Positions 11,468 to 14,942 of a stretch of DNA of 64,000 bases are shown here, one piece after another (position 1 is the first letter of the stretch; every line of letters starts with the position of its first letter). A model generated the notes under the pieces. That model searched no databases, was not told the origin of the DNA, and saw only the letters and a list, made by a program, of their open reading frames with translations. Source of the stretch: Panorpa germanica. Taxonomy: Eukaryota > Arthropoda > Insecta > Mecoptera > Panorpidae. The position numbers and the translations under genes are program-made. The DNA lies in NCBI GenBank assembly GCA_963678705.1, contig OY783204.1, positions 29,460,759 to 29,524,758 of the forward strand. Direction: 5' to 3'.

Positions 11468-14400
11468 CTACCGTGCAGCTGAGCTTTCCTGGGTGTCATT
11501 AGTACTACCACGACCTTCGTATTCCATGACTTCCTGGTAAATCAGCTCCTTCCACTGTTCAACAGTGTGTTCACGTTCATCGACACTGTGATCGTATGGA
11601 CCAGGAGCCGGCTACAAATATATTACATTACTCACAAAATTCAAACCGACATACATACGTGTTATATTCATATAAGGTAATTAAGGTGAGAGGATTTAAG
11701 AAAGGTTCGAATAAACTTAAAGAGTCTGAAGTATGGTGGAACATTTTAAAGCAGATATTGTTTAATAAAATAGTTAACATTCGTTTAGAAAAAGCTCTGT
11801 GTAAGTCTGTATCATGCATTGAACATATAGGGTGCTCTCACACTCGAACAGACTAATTGCGACGCCGACTATTTCCAGTAGGGTGGGTGTATTGGAGTTG
11901 TTTTGCGTAAATACACATTAAGATGAGAGGAAATTTCTTCTTTAATGTTTGAAAAAAGTACGTAGCACATCTGTAATACTTCAAAGTATTAATACCAACT
12001 TTTTGGGAAAATACAACTCCCTACAGAATGTACAACGATAAAATCCGCTAATGCGAAGCACTCTAGTACCCCCTAATGAAAAAGTCGGTGTTGCAATTGG
12101 TTTGTTCATTTGTGAGAGAGAGCCTTAAACACGTTTAGAATAGAGATAACCAACCTTGCGTGTTCTTTAAAATAAGGAACACGATTTTAAATGAATTACA
12201 ATTACTGCAAAAGAAAGCTATATACGAGTATGTCACAAAAGAAAAAATCGTTAGGCCTGAAAATGTAAGTTTTCGAAGTGCCATTTTAAGTGTATTCGCA
12301 TGCAAATGTGTTTCAAATAAAGCACAAAATCGAACTATTTTGCTTCAACACATTATACATATACATAAAATAAAAATATATACAATTTAAAAGAGTTAAC
12401 AAAGCGACAGATTGACAACAACAATTTTGGAAAAAGTGGATTAAGTTAAAGGTGGCATAACCTGAAAAAAAATTCCTTACAATTTGTATACTCACAGCGT
12501 TGACTTCACCCTCGTCGTACCACACATTGATGTAGGGATGCAATAAAGCTTCGTCAACAGAAATTCGTTTTTCTGGGTCTACGACTAGCATACGGCTCAA
12601 AAGATCTCGAGCTTGACTAGCCTTCAGCCTATTATGTTCACTACTATCAGATGGAAATAGAACATCGGGGAATAGTCGATCAAATGTATATCCTGGATAA
12701 CGAGGCCTATTTTCGACGTAGTTACGAACTGTAGGTTGAAGTCTAGCCATGAAGGCAGTGCTAGGGGTACCCAATTGTTCTGTACAAACGAAATATTAGT
12801 TATTTATTGAAAATTGTATAAGTTTCATCTGATAAAATAAATTATTAATAGTTATCATACCTATTATTTTATTCCATTGATCAATATGATCCGTTCCGGG
12901 GAATAAAACACCTCCTCTAATCATTTCCCCCATAATGCATCCAACTGACCATATATCTACATTTTCCTTGTAACCCATGCCAAGTATCACCTGGAAATGT
13001 TCAAATATAAAATAAGCACTGCACTCTCTTTAAGGTGTTCCAATTCCAATAACAAGAGCACAAACCTCTGGAGCTCTGTAGTAACGAGTAACTACATAAG
13101 GCGTCATCATAAACGTAGTGCCTGCTGTGCGGGCTAATCCAAAGTCAAGAATTTTCAAAGTGCAATCCGATTTTACAACAATATTGGATGGCTTTAAATC
13201 CTAAAATAAGAAATTTAATAATTAATTCAGAAATTTCAGTTAATATTTTGAATTGAATACAATATTTAAGAAACAAACCCGATGGATGATTCCTGCAGAA
13301 TGTAAATGTTTAATACCACAGAGCATCTGGTACAGTAAGTACGACATTCTTTCATGATCCAAATCCATTTGAATAACTTGACAAAGATTTGCGTCCATTA
13401 GTTCCATGACTAGGTAGACATCCTGGAATTCGTCGAGCGTCCTTTGTGGAGTAAAAGCATTTAAAAGTCCGATTATCTATAGTGGAATAAAAAAACCAAA
13501 TTAATTTGTTACACAATGATTTAAAATATTTATTTCTAGAACAAAAAACGGCTAAGAAATAAGGAAAGATAAGTAGGAAGAAAGGAGAAGGAAAGTAGAA
13601 AAATATATTTACATTTTTATGATTAACCAGCTTCATAAGCTTGAACTCTCTGTACGCTCTTTTAGCGTGTGTCACATTTTGGAATGGCCTTGATAATTTT
13701 TTAATGGCCACATTTTGTTGAGATAGTGTGTCAAATGCAGCACTGGAATAAAATTAAATATCGTTATTAATAATTTATATTTTCAAAAAAGAAATCAGTA
13801 GTAGTTTAATGGGTTAGTAATAAGCGTTTTCTACAAATCTACAAAAATAACTAATAAAAATGATGCGGTTAATATATATTAGTTTTTAAAGTCATAATTT
13901 GAAACTTATTCAAAACTATGTCATGTTACTGTTTTTCACAAATGTTACTCTTTTAGTATTTCGTCTATGATAATTGTTAATGATTTTTACACATGTTTCT
14001 CATTCTACTTACCAGACTTTTCCTTGAGCACCAACACCTTTTGGTGATAGCTCAGTATATCTGATTGGTACTTTGAAAACGGTATCGTCAAATACAGCGG
14101 TGGTAAACATTTTGAATAAATTGTTGATTAACTTTTACAGGTGAACAAATATTAAATTATAACTTTAATTATAATGTATATCACATAAACGCATCTGTGG
14201 CGTTCGAGTCTTAATTACACTTGTTGATAACTTGGCTAGCTACAATAAAATGCAAAACAAAAAAAAATTATAAAAAAAAAACAAACACAAGAAAATAATA
14301 TAAAATATAATAAATAAGAAAGAAACATACAAAACAAAAAGACTTATTTTTTTAACAAATAAAGATTATTTTTTTCTATGAACACGGAACTAATTTTGAG

Positions 14401-14942
14401 GATTGTTACAATATTATATGTACTGTAATCAGGTGTTAATGTAATTTATTTAAAAAGAACTGTAATCTAAAAGTATTTGCAGATCATAATTCATTTAGGT
14501 AAATATATATTTGGTAACGACAAATAGAAAATTCTTAATAAATATAAATCTTATTTACAAGTTTAAACAGAACTAAAAACTATATATTAGTTTGCTGTAT
14601 TAAATTCATAAAACTCGACTTATATTTTACTTTCTCAAGGTGGTGTCTCAACAAAATTAAGTATTTATGGAACCAAAATAAAATTTAAAATCTATAAAAA
14701 TATGAATAAATACAAAGCTACATAAATAATTAAAATATACATTAGCATGTCTACAGCAAAATAGCTATTGTGATATTCTCATAAATAATAAGAAAATGTG
14801 TTTGTATATAAATTGTATATAATTACCAAACGATTCCTTGTGCTCCGGATCCAATAGGCTTGAGGTTCTGATACCTCTTGAGGATGGTGAACTTAGTGTC
14901 CCCCACCTCTACGGTGTAGAAAGTGTGGTGGCGAGAAGACAT
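11468..14942 (-). CDS. bsk: c-Jun N-terminal kinase (JNK, basket)
   Basis: MAP kinase that phosphorylates Jun and other targets in stress, morphogenesis and apoptosis pathways. Coding exons: 14827-14942, 13613-13742, 13279-13476, 13066-13200, 12861-12990, 12496-12779 and 11468-11611. The total is 378 residues, usual for JNK, with all phases compatible. Visible features are the P-loop GSGAQG (31-36), VAIKK with the ATP lysine, HRDLKPSN (Asp149), DFG (167-169), the TPY activation loop (Thr181, Tyr183), 'YYRAPEVILGMGY' and the tail '[20 protein letters not shown]'. It is closest to fly basket as I recall it. The first exon begins after an acceptor (ATTTTCAG, ending 14974), so there is an upstream non-coding exon. 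A second first exon lies at 14013-14110. Several exons stop being open at their donors, as expected for real introns. Confidence 0.97.
14013..14110 (-). CDS. bsk: JNK alternative first coding exon (1b)
   Basis: Inside the intron between the canonical JNK first exon and exon 2, on the same strand, is a second start exon of 32 codons plus TG. It ends '...GVGAQGKV' with TG|GTAAGT. This is the same phase 2 as the canonical exon ('...GSGAQGIV', TG|GTAATT), so both splice to the exon at 13742 and complete the same Cys. It keeps GxGxxG but replaces the JNK-typical N-terminus ('[14 protein letters not shown]') with a segment containing '[16 protein letters not shown]', which resembles p38 kinases more. 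The exon would give a kinase with a different N-terminus and P-loop, 372 residues long. There is no clear acceptor upstream, so it may have its own promoter. Confidence 0.75.

Follow-up and report, generated by a model that had tools for sequence, protein, structure and literature searches.

In mammalian JNK1 and JNK2, the choice between exons 6a and 6b inside the kinase domain changes substrate binding, and a review of MAPK splice forms describes this choice for JNK together with different N- and C-termini (PMC8699841). The JNK rows of its table contain no P-loop or ATP-loop variant, and the words Drosophila and insect are absent from the review. In a survey of Anopheles MAP kinases (PMC3233564), none of the words alternative, isoform, splice and exon occurs. 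UGT1A has alternative start exons that are homologous to each other and are each joined to a shared body (PMC9013439). For duplicated mutually exclusive exons, the WebScipio criteria are a length within 20 aa, an ATG start with the same splice pattern and reading frame, and a relative BLOSUM62 score of at least 15% (PMC3228551).

We analyzed 64,000 nucleotides of the scorpionfly Panorpa germanica (assembly GCA_963678705.1, contig OY783204.1, positions 29,460,759 to 29,524,758 of the forward strand), hereafter the window. A JNK gene with seven coding exons lies on its minus strand, and for its N-terminal part it contains two homologous exons, 1a and the putative alternative 1b. As in mammalian JNK1/2, one of two alternative kinase-domain exons would be used. 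However, 5-7 residues change in the mammalian enzymes, whereas in the scorpionfly JNK the whole start of the kinase domain, including the ATP loop, would be exchanged. As in UGT1A, exons 1a and 1b are homologous start exons on one common body, but the first exons of UGT1A have their own promoters, whereas the acceptors upstream of 1a and 1b suggest a splice choice. With respect to the WebScipio class, exons 1a and 1b have 39 and 33 codons, including the shared Cys; both run from ATG to TG/GT and end in phase 2; and their relative BLOSUM62 score is 26.6%, against the threshold of 15%. In contrast to that class, each of the two JNK exons has a start codon, and their exclusivity is predicted from sequence.

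The common exons closely match Drosophila basket (JNK; PDB entry 5awm). The fly protein has the 1a type N-lobe and differs in this from the 1b isoform. We know of no 1b exon in fly basket. A literature search on alternative exons of insect JNK and on alternative ATP-loop exons, with subscription papers mostly outside its scope, found nothing on point, and the text of insect papers that mention JNK likewise contained no such exons. Both tandem duplication of exons and alternative first exons are established designs; in the literature searched, their application to the ATP loop of JNK appears to be new. A predicted isoform of the 1b type may exist, unremarked, in public gene models. If exon 1b is used, this stress MAPK would exchange its Gly-rich loop by an exon swap while everything else stays constant, a natural experiment of a rare kind on how nucleotide affinity, the response to inhibitors and the output of signalling depend on the loop and the N-lobe. 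It would also mean that studies of JNK isoforms that take the fly as their model can overlook forms present in related insects.

Organization of the JNK gene

The features of the gene, in the order of transcription, are as follows.

14943..14973, minus strand: putative 31-base leader of exon 1a, after an acceptor ending in TATATTTTCAG
14942-14827, minus strand: coding part of exon 1a, ATG start, 39 residues, canonical start of the JNK N-lobe
14111..14239, minus strand: putative 129-base leader of exon 1b, after an acceptor ending in CATTTTATTGTAG
14110-14013, minus strand: coding part of exon 1b, 98 bases in the first coding intron, 33 residues, donor TG/GTAAGT
13613..13742, minus strand: exon 2 (common), with the VAIKK lysine
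13279..13476, minus strand: exon 3 (common), from the spliced translation
13066..13200, minus strand: exon 4 (common), with DFG and the TPY activation loop
12861..12990, minus strand: exon 5 (common), from the spliced translation
12496..12779, minus strand: exon 6 (common), from the spliced translation
11468..11611, minus strand: exon 7 (common), ending with the stop codon TAG

The preliminary description of this locus had reported two exons on the same strand, each with its own ATG and a GxGxxG motif and each ending TG/GT in phase 2 before the same exon. This structure was confirmed at the stated coordinates. Exons 1a and 1b carry GSGAQG and GVGAQG, respectively, and both join exon 2 at 13742 in frame and in phase 2. 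An apparent Trp in the genomic read-through of the junction becomes Cys (TG/T) once spliced. Both isoforms are complete proteins, of 378 aa (1a) and 372 aa (1b), and end at the TAG at 11468. By eye, the N-lobe motif of exon 1a is that of fly JNK 5awm in the alignment, in agreement with its earlier designation as a canonical JNK start. The VAIKK, HRD, DFG and TPY motifs were read in the translation of the common exons 2-4 and thus belong to both isoforms.

The protein kinase profile (Pkinase, PF00069) scored 212.8 bits against the 1a isoform and 207.3 bits against the 1b isoform. With the full chain of the 1b isoform, the best PDB match was fly JNK 5awm (E 6.4e-214); among the best 60 of its 2,688 PDB matches, the first 47 were JNK (MAPK8/9/10 or fly JNK) and the other 13 were p38.

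We consider it likely that exon 1b is genuine, an alternative start-codon exon of P. germanica JNK that was born by tandem duplication and has been maintained for a long time. The exon encoding the N-terminal hairpin, beta-1, the Gly-rich loop and beta-2 would have been duplicated in tandem to give 1b. The transcript would then take either 1a or 1b, each of which can join exon 2 in phase 2. The two predicted proteins would share the catalytic Lys, HRD, DFG, the TPY activation loop and the C-lobe, all from exons 2-7, and would differ only in their first 38 (1a) or 32 (1b) residues. Probably, the JNK gene can make two enzymes with the same body and different ATP pockets.

At third codon positions, exon 1a has a GC content of 61.5%, whereas exons 2-7 have 36.5% and exon 1b has 27.3%.

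Splice sites upstream of exons 1a and 1b

A pyrimidine-rich 3' splice site lies upstream of each start codon. The acceptor of 1a, which ends in TTTTCAG, has its AG ending at 14974, 31 bases upstream of the 1a ATG, so that the exon would begin at 14973. For 1b, the acceptor ends in TTATTGTAG, with the AG ending at 14240; the distance to the 1b ATG is 129 bases, and the exon would begin at 14239. Pyrimidines occupy 21 of the 30 bases before the AG in 1a and 22 of 30 in 1b, and 15 to 20 in the other six JNK acceptors. The 1b acceptor is thus the most pyrimidine-rich of the eight scored in the gene. Since such sites lie upstream of both exons, we infer that 1a and 1b are internal start-codon exons, spliced from a putative upstream leader. 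The earlier view of duplicated, alternative first exons for the P-loop therefore stands in part: homology, phase, donor and codon positions agree with duplicated, alternative exons, but the upstream acceptors speak against the word "first".

When 1a was joined to the acceptor of the 1b leader, the reading frame gave IVC and then a stop. Since inclusion of both exons places a stop directly after 1a, only the use of a single one makes JNK, and the choice would be exclusive by consequence. These features suggest that 1a and 1b are internal, mutually exclusive start-codon exons. Transcription, exclusive use and selection by splicing from a common upstream leader, and not by two promoters, are predictions.

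It had also been suggested that the isoforms perhaps differ in promoter use. Each exon has a separate ATG, and alternative first exons with their own promoters are known, for example in UGT1A (PMC9013439). Furthermore, where exclusive exons are predicted at the 5' end, the WebScipio description attributes them to multiple promoters or similar causes (PMC3228551). However, the strong 3' splice site 129 bases before the 1b ATG, and the other one 31 bases before that of 1a, would not be needed by first exons. Differential promoter use is therefore doubtful, and an arrangement in which 1b is a UGT1A-like first exon with its own promoter, although possible, is not the one we expect; it would be compatible with the proposed coding role of 1b. 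Selection by splicing from a common leader is no less likely than the use of two promoters.

The putative 1b leader contains two short upstream open reading frames (uORFs; one of 9 codons from the ATG at 14194, and a start-stop at the ATG at 14186), which would lower translation.

Farther upstream, at 17693-17633 on the minus strand of the window, we found an exon-like stretch of 61 bases, preceded by ATTATTTCAG, followed by GTAAGA and containing ATGGCC. The stretch has a phase 2 end and might be spliced to exon 2 as MANLVL/C; joined to the 1a leader, it would form a uORF of 6 codons. This stretch could be a shared 5' leader or a product of chance.

Divergence of exon 1b and its ATP loop

In an ungapped alignment from the 3' end, 16 of the 33 residues of 1b are identical to those of 1a, with a BLOSUM62 score of 69. 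The maximum among 200,000 shuffles of 1b was 47, and apart from 1a and 1b the stop-free stretches of 33 residues on both strands of the window scored 22 or less. Codon positions 1, 2 and 3 are identical between the two exons in 25, 19 and 7 of the 33 codons (Fisher p 3.4e-5 for positions 1 and 2 against position 3). By the NG86 method, dN was 0.51 and dS was undefined (returned as -1, as with saturated synonymous sites). Synonymous change in 1b is beyond measure while the protein is conserved.

We then compared these values with neutral simulations in which 1a acquired 48 differences, using the local intron composition and no indels. The observed protein similarity was reached in 0 of 20,000 runs, with at most 15 identities, and the frame stayed open in 10% of runs. 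Since no neutral run and no shuffle matched the similarity, we conclude that exon 1b has been under protein-level selection for much of its life, at least in the past.

In a scan of the window for ATG...TG/GT candidates in phase 2 (18-58 codons; 682 on the minus and 687 on the plus strand, 1,369 in total, the first 17 codons being unfiltered for stops so that some candidates hold one), only 1b (0.266), 1a and a truncated form of 1a reached a relative score of at least 0.15, and the candidate ranked after them had 0.024. The donor of 1b alone is weak evidence because GTAAGT is common in the window (17 times on the minus strand and 24 times on the plus strand). When the window was searched by tblastn for duplicates of other JNK exons (E<=10), five matches were obtained beyond the exons and 1b, with E values of 0.36 to 5.6.

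The loop of 1b reads GVGAQGKV, as previously described, and keeps GxGxxGxV. Lys replaces Ile directly before the first Gly of the loop, where a hydrophobic residue is thus missing, and also after the third Gly. The counterpart of the former site is Ile32 of human JNK1, which roofs the adenine pocket. On both strands of 68 loci of the genome, all 19 distinct loops had a hydrophobic residue before the first Gly, namely I in 8, L in 8, V in 2 and M in 1. The p38 exon has V there, so that I, L, V or M occurs in each of the 20 kinases other than the 1b isoform whose loop could be recognised. This tally was made by motif and leaves kinase loci without a motif match uncounted, for example 15 of 30 PF00069 loci.

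The change from Ile to Lys before the first Gly is probably the most consequential one in 1b, and the preliminary description had not mentioned it. ATP affinity of the 1b isoform is likely to be altered or lowered, and a loss of catalytic activity is possible. Since exons 2-7 are common, both isoforms should keep the activation and docking surfaces. The product of exon 1b would then most likely be a JNK whose activators and docking are unchanged and whose ATP roof differs, with altered or lowered nucleotide affinity. As a more speculative extension, to which we give a limited chance, the 1b isoform may be a built-in pseudokinase or low-ATP-affinity JNK, with the same activation loop and the same docking to MKKs and scaffolds, that is chosen by splicing of a start-codon exon and serves in JNK signalling as an endogenous brake or scaffold whose effect depends on dose.

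The same Lys, at a site where the 20 other loops have I, L, V or M, would also fit a relic, in which case 1b would be a duplicate exon that was used in the past and is now skipped or enters transcripts only as noise. The strong divergence of 1b is in line with this, since 1b scores 69 against 1a, whereas p38 exon 1 scores 91 against 1a and is thus the less diverged of the two; so are the short uORFs upstream of 1b. However, all 33 codons are open, although neutral drift of equal size would usually close the frame, and both a GTAAGT donor and a strong acceptor are present. Moreover, a long-dead exon would be expected to have changed about equally at the three codon positions, in disagreement with the identities of 25, 19 and 7. 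We therefore regard a relic as unlikely.

Relation to p38 and to other loci of the genome

The first coding exon of p38 in this genome lies on contig 2. It encodes 34 residues before the Cys of the junction and ends TG/GT at the same position, and the intron position appears to be common to the JNK and p38 first coding exons. The preliminary description had placed 1b closer to p38-type kinases; this was not established. In the ungapped comparison, 1b and p38 exon 1 have 14 of 33 residues in common (score 65), against 16 of 33 for 1b and 1a. With gaps, its global score was 59 against the whole p38 start and 55 against the whole 1a. Of the 16 positions that distinguish 1a from p38, 1b agrees with 1a at 4 and with p38 at 2. 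It keeps the JNK-type GAQG and DTxF and also has the p38-type V-P. When the 33 residues of 1b were searched by phmmer against solved structures, human p38-alpha came first (E 0.0086), and p38-alpha filled the best 60 of 136 rows, including one entry named as a MAPK14/MAPK1 chimera. On these comparisons, the affinity of 1b to p38 and to JNK 1a is best read as a tie.

Capture of 1b from the p38 gene, instead of copying from JNK 1a, would agree with the common TG/GT end, the first place of p38-alpha in the short search, the gapped score and the shared V-P, but the ungapped score, the differing sites, GAQG among them, and the position and strand of 1b beside 1a go against it, and we judge it quite improbable. 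Tandem duplication of 1a is the simpler reading because of the place, the strand and the GAQG motif. No second P-loop exon was found for p38 intron 1; in the minus-strand frames of about 40 kb at this locus, the only GxGxxGxV match was exon 1 itself.

The genome searched comprises 464,208,970 bases in 249 contigs; the genome report gives an assembly of 464.2 Mb with 21 chromosomes including X, in which chromosome 2 has 29.11 Mb and the mitochondrial genome 16.39 kb (PMC11464959). With the 1a protein, 116 matches were obtained, 7 of them at the JNK locus of the window (78-98% identity). The other 109 had 22-66% identity and are presumably other kinases. With 109 of the 482 first-look candidates scored, the window locus was the sole JNK-level locus found. 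At the DNA level, 1b had one match in the 464 Mb. Two further collections, one of viral and one of genome contigs, yielded no relative of JNK, which agrees with what such collections contain. A search of the genome with the 33-residue 1b peptide is weak evidence because even 1a was not returned.

A chance frame is ruled out for 1b by the shuffles, the neutral simulations and the window scan. No retrocopy or second JNK locus was seen, given the single DNA match of 1b and the lack of another JNK-level match among the candidates scored.

Clusters of protein kinase frames were observed at 19.16-19.58 Mb of contig C6, 3.04-3.16 Mb of C7 and 16.16-16.29 Mb of C13. Each frame matches almost the full Pkinase profile as a single segment; many have 376 aa (C6 and C13) or 327 aa (C7), and some contain stops. 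These clusters look like tandem expansions of intronless copies. Besides the mitochondrial contig C249, nine matches to mitochondrial COI were found on contigs C16, C3, C5, C21, C15, C17 and C6, which are probably nuclear copies. No RNA family reached its gathering score in the window. By eye, three further frames in the window resemble what we take to be a mitochondrial carrier (50770-51267, plus strand), a PP2A-type phosphatase (61137-61777, minus strand) and a tubulin-tyrosine-ligase-like protein (4448-5861, minus strand). The mitochondrial tRNA order of the genome is I-Q-M and W-C-Y, which is the ancestral order of insects.
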